The notes beneath the pieces were generated by a model. That model was not told the DNA's origin. It ran no database searches and was given only the letters and a program-made list of their open reading frames with translations. A stretch of 34,603 nucleotides of DNA from a virus. The number at the start of each line of letters is the position of its first letter. The stretch's first letter is position 1. The stretch lies in the IMG/VR virus record IMGVR_UViG_3300046003_008060, positions 1 to 34,603 of that record, one strand, 5' to 3'. A program made the position numbers and the translations under genes. Positions 73 to 33,265 of this stretch are shown in pieces.

Positions 73-1266
73 TCAGCGGCGCCGCATCGGGATCACGTCG
101 GCGGGCACCTCGGGCGCCAGCGCCGCGGCGAGTCCCATGTCCACCGCGGGTCGCGCGTCGTCGGAGCGGTAGCGCCCGAGGTAGCGCTGCGTCGTCTCCA
201 GGTCGGCGTGCCCGAGCAGCCGCTGGACGTCGCGCACGCTCACCCCCGGGCGCCGGCTCATCTCCGTGGCGAACGTCCGCCGCGCGTCGTGCATCCCCGG
301 GGCATCGCCCGGGAGCCTCGCCCTCGCCCACGCCGCGGACAGCCTCGCCTCGATCCAGTGCCCCCCGAGCGCGAGCGCCTTGCCCGAGAGACCAACGGCG
401 GACTCCCGCCAGGTCGCCAGCTCGATCGCGAGCGCCGCCACGGACGCGGGCACCGGTACGTCGCGCTCCTCGCGGTCCTTCGGTCGCCACGACCCCCAGG
501 CGCGCACCCGCACCACGTCCCGGCCCACGTCCTCCGCGCGGAGGTGCCGCAGCTCGTCCACCCGGAGGCCGGTCTGGACGGCGACGGCGACGAGGAGCGC
601 CGCCCCGCGGGCGTTGGCGCGCTCGGTGGCCTCGTTGGCGCGGACGGAGGTCGACCGGGGCGGGCGCCCGAGCTCGCGGATGACGGCCCCCCACTCGTCG
701 GGCGTCGGTATCATGGGGTCGCGGTTGCGGGCGACCTCGCGCAGGTTCTTCCACCGCGAGAGCGCGCCCTCGTCACAGAGCGGCGGGTGCCTGCGCGCTG
801 CCCATCGGGCCATGGCGCGGGCGACCTGGATCGTGCGGTTGATGGTGGAGTCCGCCGTGCCCTCGCGCTGCTGGGCCTCGACGTAGCGGGCGAGGGTGTC
901 GGCGCTAATGTGGTCGATGTCGCGGACGCCGATGGCGCCGAGGAACGCGGCGAGGCGATACGCGACGTTCTCCGCGTGGCGGGCGCTCCACCGGCTGCGG
1001 TTCTCCGCGCCGAAGAGCTCGGAGAGGCGCGTCAGATCCCCTTCACGGCCCGCAGCAGCCGCGCGCGGGTCGAGTTCGCCTGCTCCGAATCGCTGGGCTG
1101 CGGCGCGGTAGGCGTCGGCGTGCGAGGTGCCGTCGAGCGGGAGCCCGAGCGATTGCCTCCCCTGCCCCGGGGCCTGGCACCACCACTGCGCGCCGCGGGG
1201 GTAGACGTGGAGCACCCCGCGTTTTCTTCGAGCCACCGCAGGAGCGCGCTTCGCAGGAGTCGCCAT
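73..1266 (-). CDS. int: Tyrosine recombinase / phage integrase
   Basis: The 397-aa product is a site-specific recombinase of the lambda integrase family, expected to integrate and excise the prophage. Residues about 17-60 look like an arm-site-binding N-terminal domain and 85-160 like the core-binding SAM-like domain. The catalytic domain shows Arg235 (TGLRVDELRHL), a likely Lys263, His326-x-x-Arg329 (HDARRTFAT), His353 (LLGHADLETTQ) and nucleophile Tyr362 (QRYLGRY), so all catalytic positions are present. The ATG at 1266 lies deep inside the upstream excisionase-like frame. It is kept because the arm-type domain begins immediately after it. The gene is the last of the leftward early operon, which places the attachment site near the window's left edge. 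Confidence 0.95.
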   Translation of the reverse strand: MATPAKRAPAVARRKRGVLHVYPRGAQWWCQAPGQGRQSLGLPLDGTSHADAYRAAAQRFGAGELDPRAAAAGREGDLTRLSELFGAENRSRWSARHAENVAYRLAAFLGAIGVRDIDHISADTLARYVEAQQREGTADSTINRTIQVARAMARWAARRHPPLCDEGALSRWKNLREVARNRDPMIPTPDEWGAVIRELGRPPRSTSVRANEATERANARGAALLVAVAVQTGLRVDELRHLRAEDVGRDVVRVRAWGSWRPKDREERDVPVPASVAALAIELATWRESAVGLSGKALALGGHWIEARLSAAWARARLPGDAPGMHDARRTFATEMSRRPGVSVRDVQRLLGHADLETTQRYLGRYRSDDARPAVDMGLAAALAPEVPADVIPMRRR

Positions 1267-7181: not shown

Positions 7182-7201
7182 TGGGGTCTCGTGCGCGGTT
7201 G

Positions 7202-7230
7202 TTGACAACGCCAGTAGTCGCGTCTACGCT
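7202..7230 (+). promoter_or_regulatory. Rightward early promoter (PR-like), apparently leaderless
   Basis: TTGACA (7202-7207), a 17-base spacer and TACGCT (7225-7230). Only 7 bases separate the -10 from the ATG of the Cro-like gene at 7238, so transcription should begin at or within a base of the start codon. The surrounding box 7198-7217 is 19/20 identical to that at PL. Repressor binding at 7208-7229 would occlude this promoter. Confidence 0.78.
7208..7220 (+). promoter_or_regulatory. Operator-like motif, copy 3 (in PR spacer)
   Basis: ACGCCAGTAGTCG matches consensus ACGCCRRTAGWCG and starts directly after the PR -35, the same register as copy 1 at PL. It overlaps the imperfect dyad GTAG-TCGCGT-CTAC at 7214-7227, a relative of the perfect repeat at 6112-6129. 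Confidence 0.6.
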
Positions 7231-7237
7231 GAACGAC

Positions 7238-7567
7238 ATGGATACCTCCTCTGTCTCCGAACGCATCGAATACCTGGGGAAGTGCGCAGGCTCCCTGCGG
7301 CGGCTTGACAAGGCGGCCGGCCTTCCTGCGGGCCACGCGCACGCCCTCACGGGTCGGATCGTCGACCCCCACCTGTCCACGCTGCATAAGATCGCGGACG
7401 GCGCAGCGGTAGCCCGGTCGTGGGTCACGAACGGCGAGGGTCCCACGCCCGACGCCGCCGTGGTGCGCGAGGCCATTGCCCGCGCCTGCGACGACGTCAA
7501 CCCCACCCTACGGGACGAGGCCGACGAGACCTCCACCGAAATCGTGCGCCCCTCGCAGGGGGCGTGA
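7238..7567 (+). CDS. Cro-like HTH regulator
   Basis: The 109-aa product begins MDTSSVSERIEYLGKCAGSLRRLDKAAGLPAGHAHALTGRIVDPHLSTLHKIADG, an HTH_XRE-like domain in the first 65 residues. A charged tail follows. It is divergent from the repressor and first under PR, the position of cro or another early regulator. The start is ATG 7238, with no ribosome site because it coincides with the predicted transcription start. The stop overlaps the next ATG (TGATG). The HTH is less canonical than the repressor's, so the Cro label rests partly on position. Confidence 0.72.
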   Translation: MDTSSVSERIEYLGKCAGSLRRLDKAAGLPAGHAHALTGRIVDPHLSTLHKIADGAAVARSWVTNGEGPTPDAAVVREAIARACDDVNPTLRDEADETSTEIVRPSQGA

Positions 7568-7995: not shown

Positions 7996-8228
7996 TGCGC
8001 CACGACCTCCAGGAGGAGACCGGCTCACGCCTCGGGCAGATCCGCGACCTCGAGCGCGACCTCGCCGAGCTCCACGGCTACCGCCGCCCGCCCCCCGGCC
8101 AGGGCGGCTCGCTCGACTGCGTGGACCCGTCCACGGGCGAGCGCATGACCCTCGGCGCGGTGATCTCGCGCCTCCGCCGGGAGCACCGGGAGGCCCGCGT
8201 TGCCGGCGCCCGCGAGGAGGCGCTGTGA
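7995..8228 (+). CDS. Hypothetical helical protein (77 aa)
   Basis: MRHDLQEETGSRLGQIRDLERDLAELHG begins a coiled-coil-like helix. A GGSLDCVDPSTGERMTLGAVISRLRREHREAR segment follows. ATG 7995 overlaps the previous stop, and its own stop overlaps GTG 8225. No family assignment. Confidence 0.6.
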   Translation: MRHDLQEETGSRLGQIRDLERDLAELHGYRRPPPGQGGSLDCVDPSTGERMTLGAVISRLRREHREARVAGAREEAL

Positions 8229-9115
8229 GCGAGCCCACCTACGAGGTCTGGCATCTCGACGGGCGCCGCCCCGAGCTGCTCTCCGGCGGGCACCCCGACA
8301 AGGGCGTCTGCCGCCGCGCGTGGCGGCTCTCGACCCACGCTGTCATCGCCAAGGACGGCCTGGTGCTGGAGCCCAAGCCGAGCTGCGACAGCCGCAAGGC
8401 GAAGGCCCTCGCGTCCGCCATCGCCGACGCCCACCGGGCTGCGACGGGCAGCGCCCCGACGCCCGCCTTCGTCGGCCCCGCGGGTGGTGACGGCAAGCGC
8501 CTCCTCGAGAGCAGCAGCGCCTCCATGCGCGCCCTCGACCCGCGCCGCCCGGCCGTCGAGCCGACCCCGCTCCCCACCCCCTGCGACGAAGCCCCCGCGC
8601 CCGTCGTCGTGGTGACCCGCAAGCCCACCGCCGTGCCCGCCCCGGAGACCCCCGCGATGACGACCACGACCACCGGCCGCTGCCCGTGCGGGGAGCCCTC
8701 GGCGCCGACGAACCCGAGCGCCAGCGGGAGGCCCAGCACGCCGCAGTTCGCCGACCTCTGCAAGGTGCACCGCGTCGCCGCGAGCAACCGGCGCTACCAG
8801 CAGAAGCTGACCCCCGACGAGGCGCGCACGAAGACGCTGGCCTCCATCGGACGCGAGCCCGAGCCGCGCGCCTCGAAGGCTCCCGCATCGAAGCCCCGGC
8901 CCTCGAAGCCCGCCCCGGTCGCCCGCGCCCCGAAGGACCGCGCCGCCGACGCCCCGGTCTCCGACCTGCTCGCGGTCGTGCGCCGCCAGCGCGCGGCCAT
9001 CGACCTCCTCGGCGGCATCGACCAGGCCGAGCGGGTGGCCGCAGCGTGTGCGCGGGTCGGCGGTGCCGAGTCGCTGGTCGCCCTGGTCGACGAGCTCACG
9101 CGGGCGGTGGCGTGA
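8225..9115 (+). CDS. Hypothetical protein with CxC...C zinc-like motif (296 aa)
   Basis: GTG 8225 forms a GTGA junction. There are three parts. The N-terminus (to about residue 100) opens YEVWHLDGRRPELLSGGHPD. A Pro/Ala-rich linker leads to GRCPCGEPS...FADLCKVHRVAASNRRYQQKL near residues 150-195, which looks like one zinc finger. The C-terminus has a Lys/Pro/Ala linker and a helical end (DLLAVVRRQRAAIDLLGGIDQAERVAAACARVGG). The basic, zinc-containing middle suggests nucleic-acid binding. I do not recognise the family. Confidence 0.6.
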   Translation: MSEPTYEVWHLDGRRPELLSGGHPDKGVCRRAWRLSTHAVIAKDGLVLEPKPSCDSRKAKALASAIADAHRAATGSAPTPAFVGPAGGDGKRLLESSSASMRALDPRRPAVEPTPLPTPCDEAPAPVVVVTRKPTAVPAPETPAMTTTTTGRCPCGEPSAPTNPSASGRPSTPQFADLCKVHRVAASNRRYQQKLTPDEARTKTLASIGREPEPRASKAPASKPRPSKPAPVARAPKDRAADAPVSDLLAVVRRQRAAIDLLGGIDQAERVAAACARVGGAESLVALVDELTRAVA

Positions 9116-9273
9116 TGGAGCCGCAGCCCTTCTGGCTCGCGCAGCACAACCTCCGGGAGACCCGGCGCCGCGCCCGCATCCTGCGCCTTCACGGCCACGC
9201 CGCGACGCCCTACCCCGCCGAGGGATGCGTGCGATGCGAGCTGCACGTGGTGACGCCGCGGGGTGCCCGGTGA
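9115..9273 (+). CDS. Small basic hypothetical protein (52 aa)
   Basis: ATG 9115 overlaps the upstream stop by one base (TGATG). The peptide is basic (HNLRETRRRARILRLHGHAATPYPAEGCVRCELH), with a CVRC pair and a His nearby that might bind zinc. It resembles small accessory proteins of unknown role. Confidence 0.5.
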   Translation: MEPQPFWLAQHNLRETRRRARILRLHGHAATPYPAEGCVRCELHVVTPRGAR

Positions 9274-9497
9274 GGTCCCGCCACACCGCCGCCTCCGTGC
9301 TCGGCAACGCCACCCAGGCCGCGCGCCGCACGGTCCAGGCGCATCGCAACGACGTCGACCGTGCCCGCGCTACCCGCGCCTTCCTCGGCGACGACGCGCC
9401 CTCCCCGGCGCACCGCTACGACCTCGCCGACGACGTCGACGACGCCCTCCCGACCACCGCCCACGTCCGCGGCCTGCGCGCCGTCGAGGAGGCCTAG
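9270..9497 (+). CDS. Hypothetical protein (75 aa)
   Basis: GTG 9270 forms a GTGA overlap with the preceding gene. The sequence is hydrophilic and helical (SVLGNATQAARRTVQAHRNDVDRARATRAFLGDD), with an acidic second half (DLADDVDDALPTT). No family recognised. Confidence 0.5.
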   Translation: MRSRHTAASVLGNATQAARRTVQAHRNDVDRARATRAFLGDDAPSPAHRYDLADDVDDALPTTAHVRGLRAVEEA

Positions 9498-9500
9498 GCC

Positions 9501-9851
9501 ATGCTGGACATCGTCCGATCGCCCTACGGGCCCTGCGAGATCGACTGCACCGGCAACGTCGCGTGCTGGCCCTGGGCGCCTCCTCCGGCCGTCGAGGAGA
9601 TCCCCGACGACGTGATGGGCCCCGAGGCCCTGGCCCGGCTGGACGCCCCCGTCGCCTCGATGTGCACCGCCCACGGCTGCACCCTCGCCGCGGCCGGTGT
9701 GCGCCGCAACACACGGCCCGCGCTCGCGCCCTTCTGCGACCGTCACCGGCACATCGCCACCGTGCGGATCGCCGCAGGGCGCACGCCCGAGGAGGCCGCG
9801 GCCCGGCTGCGCATAGGGATGGCCCCGGGGCGCCCGAGGTCCACGCAGTGA
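9501..9851 (+). CDS. Cys-rich hypothetical protein (116 aa)
   Basis: ATG 9501 follows the previous stop after three bases. The N-terminus has CEIDCTGNVACWPW and the middle CTAHGCTLAAAGVRRNTRPALAPFCDRHRH, giving a CxxxxC...C...CxxH-like set that could coordinate zinc. A helical EEAAARLRIG tail ends the protein. The stop overlaps the exonuclease start. Confidence 0.6.
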   Translation: MLDIVRSPYGPCEIDCTGNVACWPWAPPPAVEEIPDDVMGPEALARLDAPVASMCTAHGCTLAAAGVRRNTRPALAPFCDRHRHIATVRIAAGRTPEEAAARLRIGMAPGRPRSTQ

Positions 9852-10504
9852 GCCTCTCCAAGGACGCCTGGGCGCCGCACCCGACGCTCCCGCTGGCCAC
9901 CCGGGAGGAGATGCTCGCGCACCAGTCGCAGCCTGACCTCCTCTACTTCCTCGACACCGAGACCACCGGGCTCTCGCGCTCGGTCGACCGGGTGGTCGAG
10001 GTCGCCGTCGCTGCGGTCGACCGGCGCACCTGGACGGTGCTCTGGGAGGCCGCGCAGCTCATCGACCCCACGTGCTCGATGCCCTCCGCCGCCACCCGCG
10101 TCAACGGCATCACCACCGCCATGGTGCGGGGCCGGCCGCTCTTCGTCGACGTGTGGCCCCGGGTCGCCGCCAAGATCCCCAACGGCGCCACTGTCGTTGC
10201 CCACGCGGCGGCCTTCGACCGCGGGATGATCGCCAGCGAGCTCGCCCGCACCCGCTACCCGGCGCCCGAATGGGCCTGGGAGGACAGCCGCGCCCGCGCC
10301 CGCAAGGTGCTCCCCGACCGCAGCCACAAGCTGCAGGACCTGCGCGACCTGTTCCGCTGCCCCGGCGGCACCGCGCACCGCGCCCTCGGCGATGTGCAGA
10401 CCCTTGTCGCCGTGTACCGCGCCCTCCTCGAGCGCCAGGCCGAGGACGCCGCGGCGGCCGCCGCCAACGTCGCCCCGCTACTCGCCACTCGGAAGGTCGC
10501 GTGA
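9848..10504 (+). CDS. DnaQ-like 3'-5' exonuclease (DEDDh)
   Basis: The 218-aa product carries the full DEDDh set: Asp36 and Glu38 (FLDTETTGL, Exo I), Asp124 in AHAAAFDRG (Exo II), and His177 with Asp182 in TAHRALGDV (Exo III). This is the proofreading-type exonuclease fold of DNA polymerase III epsilon and RNase T. GTG 9848 is fixed by the GTGA overlap. It lies directly before the VirE-type helicase and overlaps it (TGATG), so it probably acts in phage replication or end processing. No phage DNA polymerase is visible, so it might assist the host replisome. Confidence 0.88.
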   Translation: MSLSKDAWAPHPTLPLATREEMLAHQSQPDLLYFLDTETTGLSRSVDRVVEVAVAAVDRRTWTVLWEAAQLIDPTCSMPSAATRVNGITTAMVRGRPLFVDVWPRVAAKIPNGATVVAHAAAFDRGMIASELARTRYPAPEWAWEDSRARARKVLPDRSHKLQDLRDLFRCPGGTAHRALGDVQTLVAVYRALLERQAEDAAAAAANVAPLLATRKVA

Positions 10505-12345
10505 TGAACACCAAGGCCACGACGCCCCGGGCGCCCCGGGACGCCTTCGCAGGGATGGACGAAGAGCTCGTCCGGGCGACCCTCGTCGCCAAGGGCTGGC
10601 CCCTGGAGTCGGTGGGCACCGAGGACGGAGGCCTCGTCGCGGTCCTCGGCGCCGACGTCGTGGCGGTGGTCACCGTGGGCCCCGACGGCGAGGCCGCTCT
10701 CGCGCGCATCTGCGGCGCGCACGGCTCGCTCCCCGCGACCCCCACCGTCGACCACCGGCCGCCCGGCGGCGAGCGCCGCAAGGTCCGGCTGTTCCGAGCG
10801 CCCGTGCTGCGGATGCCCAGCGCCGAGAACCTCCACGGCGCGGCCGGCGGGGTGTCGGTCGTGGCCAGCGGGCAGCAGGCGCTCCCGCCGCGCAGCGGGT
10901 ACCGGGACGTCTGGGCCGTGTGGGCTCGCGACGGGCATCCCTCGGGTCACGCGCTCGCCGAGCTGCCCGGCTGGCTCGCCGACGCCGCGCGCGACCCGAT
11001 CGTGGCCGCGAAGCTCGCGACCACCGTGCGCCCGACGCCGGCCACCACCCGCGAGCTCGATGCCTGGGAGTCGACCCTGGTCCGGTCGGGGCGCCGCACG
11101 GCCAACACCTTCGGCAACGCGATGAAGATCGTCCGATCGGCCCCGCTCTTCGCCGGCCGCTTCCGGCTCAACCTCATGTCGCAGGGCATCGAGTTCGAGG
11201 GCGCGCACCTCCCCGAAGGGCGCATCGGAACCTTCAGGGAGAAGATCGAGGATGCCCCGTGGGGCGGCTTCAGCCCCTCCGAGGCGACGGTCATGCAGGC
11301 CGTCCGCGCGCTCGCCGAGGAGCAGGCCTACCACCCGGTGCAGGACTACCTTGCTGGGCTGGTCTGGGACGGCGTTCCGCGCCTCGACCTCGTCGCCACC
11401 GAGCTGCTCCACGCGGAGTCCGACGAGCTCGTCACCACCATGGTGCGCAGGTGGTTCATCGGCGCGGTCGCTCGCGCGCTCAACCCCGGGTGCCAGGTCG
11501 ACACGGCGCTGGTGCTGGTCGGCGACCAGGGCCGGAAGAAATCGAGCTTTTTCCGGGCTCTCGCCGGGGCATGGTTCGGCGACACCGAGATCAAGATCGG
11601 CGACAAGGACGCCTACGGCCAGATCCACCTCAACTGGATCACCGAGTGGGGCGAGATCGACCGCGTCACGAGCCAGCGCCACGCCGGCGAGGTCAAGGCC
11701 TTCGTCTCCCGCCGCGCGGACACCTTCCGCCCGCCCTACGGGAAGACGACCGCGACCTACCCCCGGTCGTGCGTCATCGTGGGCAGCACCAACGAGGGGG
11801 AGTTCCTGTCCGATCCCACCGGCTCGCGCCGTTTCTGGGTCGTAAGGGTGCGGCAGACCATTGACGCCGACCTGGTCACCTCGCTCCGAGACCAGCTCTG
11901 GGCAGAGGCCGTCGCCGCCTACCGCTCGGGAGAGATTCACTACCTGCTCCCCGAGGAGGACAGGGCCCGGGAGATCGCCGCCGAGCAGTACCGGGCCCGA
12001 GACGCCTGGGAGGAGGTGGTCGATAGCTGGCTGGAGGACCGCTGGGCGGGCCACCAGATCGAGACCGGGCAGCGGCTGCTCACCTCGCAGGTGATCCTCC
12101 GCAAGGCGCTCGGGCTCGAGCCCCGGGACATGGACCGCGCCGTCGCCATGCGCCTCGGCCGGGTGATGGCGGCGCTCGGATACGCCAACGAGCGACAGCG
12201 GGTGCCGCGCCAGGCCGCCGACCTTTACCGCGACCCGGAGGGCAACCCCCTCAAGTTGGTCCACGTCTGGACTCTCGCCGGCGCTTTGGATATGAACGAG
12301 GCGACATCCTCGGGGATGGAGGCGGATTTTGTTCCGACCTTCTAA
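10504..12345 (+). CDS. VirE-family replicative helicase with degenerate prim-pol-like N-terminus
   Basis: The 613-aa product contains a P-loop ATPase of the virulence-associated E family (PF05272-like): Walker A GDQGRKKSS (340-348), Walker B-like WITEWGEID (378-386), and a sensor/arginine region GSTN...DPTGSRRFWVV (427-447). Residues about 50-160 resemble the second half of a bifunctional primase-polymerase domain (LPATPTV, GGERRKVRLFRAP, GVSVVASGQQALPPR, LAELPGWL). Where a DxD metal motif is expected it reads VVTVGPDG, so the domain looks inactive. The protein probably melts or unwinds the phage origin. Its last codons form the first unit of the 9-bp repeat array. Confidence 0.82.
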   Translation: MNTKATTPRAPRDAFAGMDEELVRATLVAKGWPLESVGTEDGGLVAVLGADVVAVVTVGPDGEAALARICGAHGSLPATPTVDHRPPGGERRKVRLFRAPVLRMPSAENLHGAAGGVSVVASGQQALPPRSGYRDVWAVWARDGHPSGHALAELPGWLADAARDPIVAAKLATTVRPTPATTRELDAWESTLVRSGRRTANTFGNAMKIVRSAPLFAGRFRLNLMSQGIEFEGAHLPEGRIGTFREKIEDAPWGGFSPSEATVMQAVRALAEEQAYHPVQDYLAGLVWDGVPRLDLVATELLHAESDELVTTMVRRWFIGAVARALNPGCQVDTALVLVGDQGRKKSSFFRALAGAWFGDTEIKIGDKDAYGQIHLNWITEWGEIDRVTSQRHAGEVKAFVSRRADTFRPPYGKTTATYPRSCVIVGSTNEGEFLSDPTGSRRFWVVRVRQTIDADLVTSLRDQLWAEAVAAYRSGEIHYLLPEEDRAREIAAEQYRARDAWEEVVDSWLEDRWAGHQIETGQRLLTSQVILRKALGLEPRDMDRAVAMRLGRVMAALGYANERQRVPRQAADLYRDPEGNPLKLVHVWTLAGALDMNEATSSGMEADFVPTF

Positions 12346-12611
12346 CGGTGTTCCGACCGTTCCGACCTTGTTCCGACCTGTGTTCCGACCGGTTTCGGCG
12401 GGAAACGCAGGGGAGTTCCGACCGTTCCGACCTTTCGCGCGCACATACGTGAGGGCGCAGAGCCTCCTGCGCTGTGCCGTTGCCGCTGCTGCCTCTCTGA
12501 GTTCTTGGAGGTCGGAACGGTCGGAACAGTCGGAACACTGCCTGTTTTGCAGGGCGCTGGAGTGTTCCGACCTCGCCGGGGCAGGTCGGAACATCGGGGC
12601 GAGGTCGGAAC
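12331..12611. repeat. Array of 9-bp repeats (GTTCCGACC), candidate replication origin
   Basis: Thirteen copies occur within 281 bases. Plus-strand GTTCCGACC is at 12331, 12350, 12359, 12370, 12382, 12415, 12424 and 12564. Minus-strand copies (GGTCGGAAC on plus) are at 12510, 12519, 12528 (one mismatch), 12584 and 12603. Two head-to-tail pairs, at 12415-12432 and 12510-12527, are perfect inverted repeats extended by one pair to 19 bp. They surround a 77-base centre that has its own hairpin (GCGCAG-AGCCTC-CTGCGC, 12455-12472). Iterated sites beside a replication helicase are typical of phage and plasmid origins. Confidence 0.7.
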
Positions 12612-12717
12612 ACGTTGCTTCCAGGGCGTGCCGCGGCGTTCCCCCTCGTCGCCCCATTGCTCGTCCCCTGGTGCTTGCGGGCGCTGCTGAGGCTCCTGGC
12701 GCGACTGCGGGGGCGTT
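12612..12717. other. Remainder of the intergenic region after the repeat array
   Basis: The non-coding stretch begins at the helicase stop codon (12345) and runs to 12717. Its first part is the repeat array. The last 106 bases are GC-rich with no repeat, promoter or terminator that I can support; a weak purine run lies before GTG 12718. Confidence 0.4.
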
Positions 12718-30293: not shown

Positions 30294-30697
30294 CCCTCGG
30301 AACCGACCTCAGCACCCCCGTTTCCGCCGAGGGCCTCCTCGACCTGGACCCGGCCATGCGGCTGGCGACGGGGCGGGTGCAGCTCGCGCAGGCCATCGGG
30401 CGGCGCGTCACCACCCGCCGCGGCACCCTCGCGTGGATCGGGGACGACCCCGACCACGGGATCGACGTGCGCGACTTCCTGGGCTCCGACGCCGACGGCC
30501 AGAGCGCCTTCCGCATCGCCGCGCTGGTGCAGGCCGAGGTGCTGCGCGACGAGCGCGTTCGCAGCTGCGACGCGAGCGCGAGCGTCACCGACGGGCTGCT
30601 GACCCTCTCCCTCCGGCTCACCGACGACGACGGGCCCTTCCGGCTCGTGGTCGCGGTGTCGGCTGTCACCATCGAGCTCCTGCGGGTGTACTCATGA
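30290..30697 (+). CDS. Baseplate wedge protein (Mu gp46 / gp25-like)
   Basis: The 135-aa protein shows the gp25/W-type pattern: MRLATGRVQLAQAIGRRVTTRRGTLAWIGDDPDHGIDVRDFLG, then AEVLRDERVRSCDASASVTDGLLTLSLRLTDDDGPFRLVVAVS. In Mu the equivalent (gp46) also precedes gp47. The start is a rare TTG at 30290, forced by the TTGA overlap with the spike stop. Confidence 0.82.
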   Translation: MTLGTDLSTPVSAEGLLDLDPAMRLATGRVQLAQAIGRRVTTRRGTLAWIGDDPDHGIDVRDFLGSDADGQSAFRIAALVQAEVLRDERVRSCDASASVTDGLLTLSLRLTDDDGPFRLVVAVSAVTIELLRVYS

Positions 30698-31845
30698 CCG
30701 TCTCCACGATCGCCGAGCTCACCACCCCCCGCACGGCCGACGCGATTACGACGGCGCAGCTCGCGGCCCTCGCCGCGGCGGCCTTCCCGGTCGATGCGTG
30801 GGCCTCCGGCGGCGCCGCCCGCTCGCTCGTGCGCGCCGACGCCACGGCGCTGGCGGTCACCGAGCAGACCGTCGCCAACCTCGCGCTCGGGGCCTACGGC
30901 TCGACCGCCACGGGCAGCTGGCTCGACCTCTTCATCGCGTCGCGCTTCGACCTGACGCGCATCGCCGCGACCTACGCCACGGGGCAGGTCGTGCTCACGG
31001 TTGCCAGCGGCGCTGGGCCCTTCGCGGTCGTTGCGGGCGGGCTCCTGGTGAGCGATGGCACCTATCGGTGGCGATCGACCAACACCGGCACGGTGAACAT
31101 CACCTCGGGCACGCCCGTCACGTTCACGGTGCGCGCCGAGGCCGCGGGCGAGAACTACAACGTCGCCAACAGCACGATCACCAGCATCATCAGCCCGGCG
31201 CTGCCGGGGGTGACCTGCGCCAACCCGGCGATCGGGTCCACCTCGACGTGGCTCTCCGCCAGCGCCGTCAACGCCGAGAGCGACGCGGCGTACCTCGCCC
31301 GCGCGGTCGCCCGGTGGGCCACGCTCGGGAGCGGCTTCACCCGTGACGCCGTGCGGTACTGGTGCACCTCGGCGCTCCTCGCGGGCGTGTCCGCCGGCTG
31401 CACCCGGGTGAGCTTCGCAGCGCCCGCGGGCGACGGCTCGTACACCGTCTACGTCGCGGGTGCCTCGGGTGTTCTCGCGGGGCCTGCGGTCGCGGCCGTC
31501 CAGGCGGAGCTCACCCTCCGCAAGCCCATCACCGACACGCCGACGGTCGTTGCCGCGAGCGCTGCCACGATCACGTGCACCGGGACGGTGCGGTTCAAGT
31601 CCACGGCGACGGCGGCAGAGCAGATCGCCGTCAAGGACGCCATTGCGACCTACGTCAACGGCCTCGCGATGCCCGATGCGGGCGACACCGTCACCGTGGA
31701 CATCGCGGGCATCCACGCCGCCATCTACGGCGCGGCCCCCGGGCGCATCGCCGACGTGGACCTGTCGAGCCCGAGCGGGGACACCAGCGTCACGCTCGGC
31801 ACCGTCGCCGTAGCGGACACCGCGGCCGTGACGTTCACGGCCTGA
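30694..31845 (+). CDS. Baseplate J-like protein (Mu gp47)
   Basis: The 383-aa protein matches the baseplate J family (PF04865): an N-terminal helix (DAITTAQLAALAAAAFPVDAWASGGAARSLVRADATALAVTEQTVANLALGAY), LDLFIASRFDLTRIAATYATG, beta domains with SGTPVTFTVRAEAAGENYNVANSTIT, SDAAYLARAVARWATLGSGFTRDAVRYW and a C-terminal half with VTVDIAGIHAAIYGAAPGR. It forms the wedge arms that join baseplate and fibres. The start ATG overlaps the wedge stop. The next gene is not coupled, marking the beginning of the cargo insertion. Confidence 0.9.
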   Translation: MTVSTIAELTTPRTADAITTAQLAALAAAAFPVDAWASGGAARSLVRADATALAVTEQTVANLALGAYGSTATGSWLDLFIASRFDLTRIAATYATGQVVLTVASGAGPFAVVAGGLLVSDGTYRWRSTNTGTVNITSGTPVTFTVRAEAAGENYNVANSTITSIISPALPGVTCANPAIGSTSTWLSASAVNAESDAAYLARAVARWATLGSGFTRDAVRYWCTSALLAGVSAGCTRVSFAAPAGDGSYTVYVAGASGVLAGPAVAAVQAELTLRKPITDTPTVVAASAATITCTGTVRFKSTATAAEQIAVKDAIATYVNGLAMPDAGDTVTVDIAGIHAAIYGAAPGRIADVDLSSPSGDTSVTLGTVAVADTAAVTFTA

Positions 31846-31861
31846 CGAGCTGCGGTATCGT
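31834..31861 (+). promoter_or_regulatory. Candidate promoter of the DUF4177-like gene
   Basis: TTCACG (31834-31839, 4/6), 16 bases, then TATCGT (31856-31861, 4/6) ends 6 bases before ATG 31868. There is no Shine-Dalgarno before that ATG. The geometry equals the leaderless PR, so the gene may be transcribed independently of the late operon. Confidence 0.4.
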
Positions 31862-31867
31862 CGGCGC

Positions 31868-32089
31868 ATGACCGCGCCCGATATGCCGCCGCAGTGGGAT
31901 TACCGAATCGTCGTGCTCGGTGGCGACCCGAGGCACTTGGAGCCCCAGTTGAAGCAACTTGGCTGGGAAGGCTGGGAGCTCGTCCTGATCTCGGGCTCGG
32001 AATCTGGCCGGACCGCGGGTGCTTTCCTGGGCGTGTTCAAGCGCATGGTGACGCCCGGCACGCCAATGACCCCGACGGCCTACGGCTGA
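31868..32089 (+). CDS. DUF4177-like small protein
   Basis: The 73-aa product (PPQWDYRIVVLGGDPRHLEPQLKQLGWEGWELVLISGSESGRTAGAFLGVFKR) fits the DUF4177 pattern W-Y-(K/R)-VV ... LG-EGWELV ... FKR, a small fold of unknown function. It is detached from the overlapping baseplate operon (22-base gap), has its own promoter-like sequence, and looks less GC-rich by eye than its neighbours. All three suggest a later insertion. It ends 4 bases from the stop of the opposed lipoprotein gene. Confidence 0.72.
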   Translation: MTAPDMPPQWDYRIVVLGGDPRHLEPQLKQLGWEGWELVLISGSESGRTAGAFLGVFKRMVTPGTPMTPTAYG

Positions 32090-32093
32090 TCGG

Positions 32094-32552
32094 TCACCGC
32101 AGGCAGACGCAGTTCACGCAGAACGATCCCGGCTCGCACGTGTTGCCGCACCCGCCGCAGTGGTAGGTGCGGCCCGCGCCGCCGTCTCGCTCCCCGATCT
32201 GCACGTTCACCGTGCGGCCGTCGCAGGTCGCGGTGACCCCTCGGCACACCTCGCTCTGCCGCGGGTCGACGTCGCGCGGCACGTCCACCCCGGTGTCCGT
32301 CCCCACGTCCGCCGGCCCCGCGTCGAAGCCCGCATCCACCGGGCTCCCGAGGTCGACCACCACGGGCCGGTCCTCGCCCACGTCCACCGCGCTCCCCGCG
32401 TCCAGGGCCCCGCCGTCAACCGCCACACAGGCGCCGCCCATGCACACCGTCCCGGCGCCGCAGGCTGAGCTACACGGCCCCGCATCGGGCAGCAGCACGG
32501 GGTCAGCGGAGCAGGCGGCGGCACACAAGGCGAGGGCGAAGAGCAGGCGCAC
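32094..32552 (-). CDS. Cys-rich lipoprotein on reverse strand (moron candidate)
   Basis: The 152-aa product begins VRLLFALALCAAACS: a short basic start, a hydrophobic stretch and a lipobox-like AAAC with Cys14. It continues with CSSACGAGTVCMGGACV, then an Asp/Gly/Val-rich linker (DAGSAVDVGEDRPVVVDLGSPVDAG...), and ends CGGCGNTCEPGSFCVNCVCLR. An in-frame TAG 12 bases upstream forces GTG 32552. This style is typical of outer-surface proteins of myxobacteria-like hosts. It is the only minus-strand gene in the virion block, so it is probably expressed in the lysogen, perhaps for surface modification or superinfection exclusion. The function is not shown. Confidence 0.75.
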   Translation of the reverse strand: MRLLFALALCAAACSADPVLLPDAGPCSSACGAGTVCMGGACVAVDGGALDAGSAVDVGEDRPVVVDLGSPVDAGFDAGPADVGTDTGVDVPRDVDPRQSEVCRGVTATCDGRTVNVQIGERDGGAGRTYHCGGCGNTCEPGSFCVNCVCLR

Positions 32553-32558
32553 CCCCGG

Positions 32559-32564
32559 AGCCTA
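32559..32564 (-). promoter_or_regulatory. -10-like element of the lipoprotein gene
   Basis: TAGGCT on the minus strand (32564-32559) ends 6 bases before GTG 32552, the same spacing as at the other candidate leaderless starts. No -35 is recognisable (GGATGC at the expected place), so this is weak support only. Confidence 0.25.
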
Positions 32565-32608
32565 CGGCACGACCGGGCCCCGCATCCATCCCGCACCCAC
32601 GGACACCC

Positions 32609-33265
32609 ATGCCCGCACCTACCACCCTCGCCGTCTACCAGGCCGACATCGGCCCCATGCAGGGCCGTTGGGCCCGCGCGTGGGCGCTGGCCGTCGGCGC
32701 GTCGAAGGACACCTCCCTCGAGCGCGCGCGCCAGTCGGTGCTGGTGGGCGCCGTTACCCGGGCCCCGGCAGACGCGATGCCACTCCTCGGCGCCGACGTG
32801 GCGCTCGAGCAGCTGCCCGGCGAGACGTCGGCCTCCTACGGTGCCCGCATCCTCGGCGCCTGGGACACGTGGCCCTGGGCCGGGACGCGGACGAGCCTCG
32901 CTAACGTCGCCGCGCAGCTGCTCTACCCCACCGCCGTGCTCGTCACCGCGGCCGAGTGGGGCGTGCCCTTGGCGTCGACGATCTGGGCTCGCTGGTGGCT
33001 GCTGGTCGGCCCGAGCGACCACGGTTTCGCGGGTGAGCACTACTGGGGCACGGGCACCTGGGGTGAGACGGGCACCTGGGGCTCCACCGCCACCGAGGCG
33101 CAGGTCGCTCTCCACCGCCGCGCCTTCCGCCGGTTCACCAACGCCCGCGACCTCGGGTGGGTCCGGTTCGCCTTCGGCAACACGGACTACTGGGGCGACC
33201 CCGGTGGGCTTTTCAACTCCGGCAAGTGGGGTTCCGACCCCGGCTTCGTCGAATGGAGCGTCTGA
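32609..33265 (+). CDS. Tail/baseplate protein, Mu gp48 position
   Basis: The 218-aa protein comes after baseplate J and the cargo genes, where Mu gp48 or P2 I lies. Its N-terminal half (YQADIGPMQGRWARAWALAVGASKDTSLERARQSVLVGAVTRAPADAMPLLGADVALEQLPGETSASYGARILGAWDTWPWAG) is helical. The second half has repeated Trp-Gly motifs (YWGTGTWGETGTWGS; YWGDPGGLFNSGKWGSDP) and probably forms a beta surface that holds fibres. The assignment depends largely on gene order. Confidence 0.6.
   Translation: MPAPTTLAVYQADIGPMQGRWARAWALAVGASKDTSLERARQSVLVGAVTRAPADAMPLLGADVALEQLPGETSASYGARILGAWDTWPWAGTRTSLANVAAQLLYPTAVLVTAAEWGVPLASTIWARWWLLVGPSDHGFAGEHYWGTGTWGETGTWGSTATEAQVALHRRAFRRFTNARDLGWVRFAFGNTDYWGDPGGLFNSGKWGSDPGFVEWSV

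Follow-up and report, generated by a model that had tools for sequence, protein, structure and literature searches.

Genes at the junction behind baseplate J

The DNA analysed here, referred to as the window, is the whole record IMGVR_UViG_3300046003_008060, a single 34.6-kb viral genome of 34,603 nucleotides. Judged from its gene content, the phage is a temperate myovirus, the temperate lifestyle being deduced from a tyrosine integrase encoded near the left end (73-1215, minus strand, E 6.2e-17). The integrase is followed by a RecT-like gene, a regulatory region near 6.5-7.5 kb and VapE-type replication genes, and then by genes for terminase, Mu-type portal, sheath, tape measure and baseplate proteins, all on the plus strand. 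The host is probably myxobacterium-like, as Myxococcus phage Mx4 is among the few phage records matched by the baseplate J protein (the others are Meiothermus and Thermus phages) and weak hits to MXAN_6577-like proteins point in the same direction. Two scans of genome collections, employing baseplate J and terminase alignments, returned no related prophage from the cellular genomes they covered.

The baseplate J gene (30694..31845, plus strand; Pfam Baseplate_J, E 8.4e-25; PHROG baseplate wedge, E 8.9e-35) forms the upstream border of the junction studied here. Its stop codon, ending at 31845, is followed after 22 nt by a DUF4177/Sp36-like gene of 73 amino acids (31868..32089, plus strand), after another 4 nt by a gene for a cysteine-rich lipoprotein of 152 amino acids with a lipobox at Cys14 (32094..32552, minus strand) and, after 56 nt, by the next tail gene (32609..33265, plus strand), which forms the downstream border. 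The two genes in between are thus convergent, with ends only 4 nt apart, and the three gaps contrast with the operon genes upstream of the junction, most of which overlap by a few bases. A preliminary description of this DNA had reported that tight coupling stops after J and that a convergent pair with a reverse-strand, cysteine-rich lipoprotein gene follows, and the coordinates bear this layout out. The names it had given to neighbours and families stand only in part. Baseplate J was named correctly; the downstream gene, which had been called gp48-like, looks like P2 gpI instead, its ortholog in the related record L005 resembling Tail_P2_I (E 0.0032, below the cut-off). The DUF4177 label proved weak.

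The 73-residue protein matches DUF4177 (Pfam, E 0.02, 15.6 of 25 bits) and Sp36 (NCBIfam, E 7.6e-7, 29 of 50 bits) weakly over residues 10-59 and shares with these small proteins a predicted beta-alpha-beta-beta arrangement (pLDDT 71), but it remains under both curated cut-offs. Comparison of the model with the PDB gave no significant match (the best one, KCTD5 with E 6.6e-3, is taken as no evidence), and searches of phage and plasmid proteins brought nothing useful. By default it is read as probably a small cytoplasmic accessory protein. Its gene stands out by composition: the GC content is 65.8%, compared to 73.1 +/- 2.2% in the late genes, so that the lower GC content previously judged by eye is real, and GC3 is 0.82, compared to 0.95 +/- 0.03. 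The lipoprotein gene, with 75.2% GC, is normal among the late genes.

Relatives and the order of insertion

Two related phage records, L005 and L006, are about 75% identical to the window at the DNA level and hardly differ from each other across the aligned region. In both, the lipoprotein gene occupies this junction in the orientation seen in the window, its end lying 4 nt from the stop codon of J, and the DUF4177-like gene is absent. A further record, IMGVR_UViG_3300046028_011229, is identical to the window and carries both genes; the lipoprotein is carried by only two independent lineages. More distant are Mx4 and IMGVR_UViG_3300044796_000168 (G004), whose J proteins are 33% and 29% identical to that of the window. 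Their next tail genes, homologous to the gene at 32609-33265 (hhalign E 8e-7), start 1 and 3 nt after J, and both extra genes are missing. Three other relatives, identified by their capsid protein (L027-L029), stop short of the junction. The absence from related phages for which the preliminary description had proposed to look therefore holds for both genes in Mx4 and G004; in L005 and L006 it holds for the DUF4177-like gene only, the lipoprotein gene being present alone.

This distribution disagrees with the preliminary view of the pair as a single two-gene cassette. Insertion as one unit would explain why the genes are adjacent, convergent and preceded by the same promoter geometry. Nevertheless, phages about 75% identical to the window have the lipoprotein gene without its neighbour, which argues for two events rather than one, and the base compositions of the two genes differ; we consider a one-step insertion improbable. 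The most economical order, as read from these comparisons, places the arrival of the lipoprotein gene in the baseplate operon before the window and L005/L006 diverged; the DUF4177-like gene was probably a later, separate insertion in the window lineage, bringing its own putative leaderless promoter. It is possible that the DUF4177-like gene was instead lost in L005/L006; such a history takes one more step and leaves the odd composition of the gene unexplained.

Promoter-like elements at the two start codons

A -10-like hexamer precedes each of the two genes. The start contexts are TATCGT-cggcgc-ATG for the DUF4177-like gene (hexamer and 6-nt gap at 31856..31867, plus strand) and TAGGCT-ccgggg-GTG for the lipoprotein gene (32553..32564, minus strand), and the spacing of exactly six bases, pointed out in the preliminary description, is confirmed at both. 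Its remark that neither gene has a ribosome site is true as well, but it does not set these genes apart, roughly half of the remaining called genes being likewise without one. When both strands of the window were scanned for TANNNT-N6-RTG, only two sites were found, located at exactly these two starts. Chance alone would place about 1.85 such sites somewhere in the window, so that the information lies in where the sites fall: the chance of both lying at the two named starts is near 1e-6, and of sites at any two of the 45 called genes near 1e-3. In L005/L006 the lipoprotein gene starts with TAGGGT-ccgggg-ATG and the TANNNT-N6-start arrangement is thus kept, although in L005 the AGGG within the hexamer could also serve as a weak Shine-Dalgarno site.

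In high-GC bacteria, and also in some delta-proteobacteria, leaderless genes are known to be marked by a TANNNT that begins about 12 bp before the start codon; of 33 delta-proteobacterial genomes examined, 8 showed this mark, on average at 15.8% of genes (PMC3160421). In Deinococcus, TANNNT lying 6-7 bp from the ORF has been tested experimentally (PMC12340547). A leaderless start is likely elsewhere in the same phage: the early gene at 7238, which encodes 109 amino acids and lies opposite a minus-strand gene for a putative helix-turn-helix repressor, is preceded by TTGACA-17-TACGCT, a probable leaderless early promoter (window 7190-7567) whose -10 element ends 7 nt before the ATG. A consensus scan revealed no clear -35 box near the DUF4177-like and lipoprotein genes, the -35 regions being poor, and a simple consensus scan limited to intrinsic terminators with a T-run revealed no terminator near them; the promoter at 7190-7567 was also missed by the consensus scan. 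Taken from the start contexts, each of the two genes seems to have its own very compact leaderless promoter. The hexamers might also be accidental, with the genes expressed by read-through or not at all, which would agree with the 1.85 sites expected in the window and with the poor -35 regions. Coincidence of both sites with the two starts and retention of the lipoprotein one in relatives about 75% identical speak against it, and we regard this explanation as unlikely.

The cysteine-rich lipoprotein and its possible role

The case for the 152-residue product as a lipoprotein is convincing at the level of sequence: the lipobox, read by eye, ends in an invariant cysteine (...CAAAC14 and ...LALSC14). 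The proteins of the window and L005 are 72% identical overall, and all 13 of 13 cysteines from Cys14 onward are invariant between the window and L005/L006. Their spacing defines a knot at the N-terminus (CX3CX5CX4C), a pair (CX6C) and a knot at the C-terminus (CX2CX3CX5CX2CXC), and an Asp/Ala/Gly-rich linker of variable length separates the first knot from the pair. With dN of 0.24 and dS of 0.54, the ratio of about 0.45 lies between those of J (about 0.37) and the I-like tail gene (about 0.67), which indicates a real gene, kept by purifying selection of a strength similar to that on structural genes. Serine at +2 and leucine at +7 after the lipid-bearing cysteine fit the rule for outer-membrane lipoproteins of M. 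xanthus (quoted in PMC5562445), provided that the host is a relative, so that location in the outer membrane is probable. We picture the product as a secreted, probably outer-membrane lipoprotein in which two disulfide-rich knots would be joined by the linker.

Family searches gave no confident homolog with known function, only sub-threshold matches to cysteine-rich families (STIG1, MXAN_6577-like). Similarity to the MXAN_6577-like proteins (NCBIfam NF041328) extends over the cysteine-rich parts with E 7.9e-4 (1e-4 for the L005 protein) but is far under the 100-bit family cut-off. No match was found among phage and plasmid protein records and nothing in the defence library PADLOC, and AlphaFold produced no usable model (pLDDT 41).

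We propose, with about even confidence, that the two genes are independently acquired accessory genes (morons) with leaderless promoters and that the lipoprotein alters the surface of the lysogen, which would be its most likely job. Separate putative promoters, separate histories and a temperate phage fit the moron concept, which the preliminary description had invoked. In relatives, the corresponding neighbours lack the extra genes between them: both are missing in Mx4 and G004, and the DUF4177-like gene also in L005/L006. Each start carries TANNNT-N6, kept for the lipoprotein gene in L005/L006, though a clear -35 box is lacking. Atypical composition is seen in the DUF4177-like gene and not in the lipoprotein gene. 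Morons usually, though not always, possess a terminator of their own. With a putative leaderless promoter of its own directed against the late operon, the lipoprotein gene should be on in the lysogen, and we infer its expression there; late lytic transcription would read through it in antisense and could shut it off. If the gene is indeed expressed from the prophage, it would represent conserved surface-lipoprotein cargo in phages of a poorly studied group; otherwise, the two genes are ordinary prophage cargo.

A broader suggestion, which we put forward as speculative, is that morons of this kind behave as "plug-in" genes. In a host that reads leaderless messages, cargo would need almost nothing except a -10 hexamer placed six bases ahead of the start codon, so that single genes could be dropped repeatedly into tight structural operons and expressed alone, a reverse-strand one being controlled by antisense late transcription. 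If prophage expression holds, the junction would illustrate how leaderless promoters might open dense phage operons to accessory genes at the cost of very little DNA.

For a cysteine-rich lipoprotein of the outer membrane, the best precedent is superinfection exclusion, as known for Ltp of Streptococcus thermophilus phage TP-J34 (PMC3952083) and Llp of T5 (PMC9586334). Ltp is likewise the lipoprotein of a temperate phage, is transcribed in the prophage and was considered a moron by its authors; unlike here, its host is Gram-positive and its gene belongs to the lysogeny module (PMC3952083). The searches showed no sequence relation between the two proteins, and exclusion by the present one is putative. 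Llp and Cor are, as is predicted for our protein, small disulfide-bearing phage lipoproteins of the outer membrane of Gram-negative cells. T5, however, is lytic, superinfection-exclusion proteins are made early, and Llp, with one reported disulfide, blocks FhuA (PMC9586334), whereas the protein of the window has two cysteine-rich knots, a linker and no known receptor. Searches of PHROGs, Pfam, PADLOC and PDB sequences showed no similarity of the lipoprotein to a known exclusion protein. Superinfection exclusion is thus our leading working guess about its role, tentatively held and not a claim of membership in these groups.

Phage lipoproteins often act in lysis, and the position of this one in the tail module is conserved. 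It might accordingly serve the lytic cycle, as an outer-membrane spanin-like or virion-associated protein, with its reverse orientation incidental. We find this quite unlikely: the gene lies on the strand opposite to the late operon and has its own promoter-like element, the putative lysis genes, placed by eye further downstream in L005, do not include it, and it is missing at the junction in Mx4 and G004, related phages that must lyse too.

SitA toxins of M. xanthus, which are outer-membrane lipoproteins encoded in the Mx-alpha prophage/mobile-element region (PMC5562445), raise the thought of a lipoprotein toxin that kin cells would hand on to one another when they exchange outer membrane, the DUF4177-like protein being its immunity partner. 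This is hardly credible, as the gene order is convergent and not sitBAI-like, and the C-terminus is conserved rather than polymorphic. Membership among SitA toxins was rejected on the grounds that no toxin C-terminal domain was found and that the convergent neighbour is absent in L005/L006, which keep the lipoprotein.

Several minor observations concern the tail and lysis regions of the relatives. The C-terminal part of the L005 ORF at 8227-9435 (plus strand), downstream of the tail genes, contains, by eye, a stretch resembling a response-regulator receiver (SVLVVDDVAAVRELMAMVLRD...). In the apparent lysis region of L005, the ORF at 9661-10356 (plus strand) has no family match and contains a second lipobox-like segment (LGAALTGC) followed by a cysteine-rich tail. 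Myxococcus phage Mx4 (L008) has, just after a tail gene, an unannotated 134-aa ORF with a lipobox (MKNLVMLAVLALGAC...) at 12255-12659 (minus strand), where the record annotates two small plus-strand ORFs; equipped with an SD-like AGGGGG, it is possibly another reverse-strand lipoprotein from the tail region of a Myxococcus phage.
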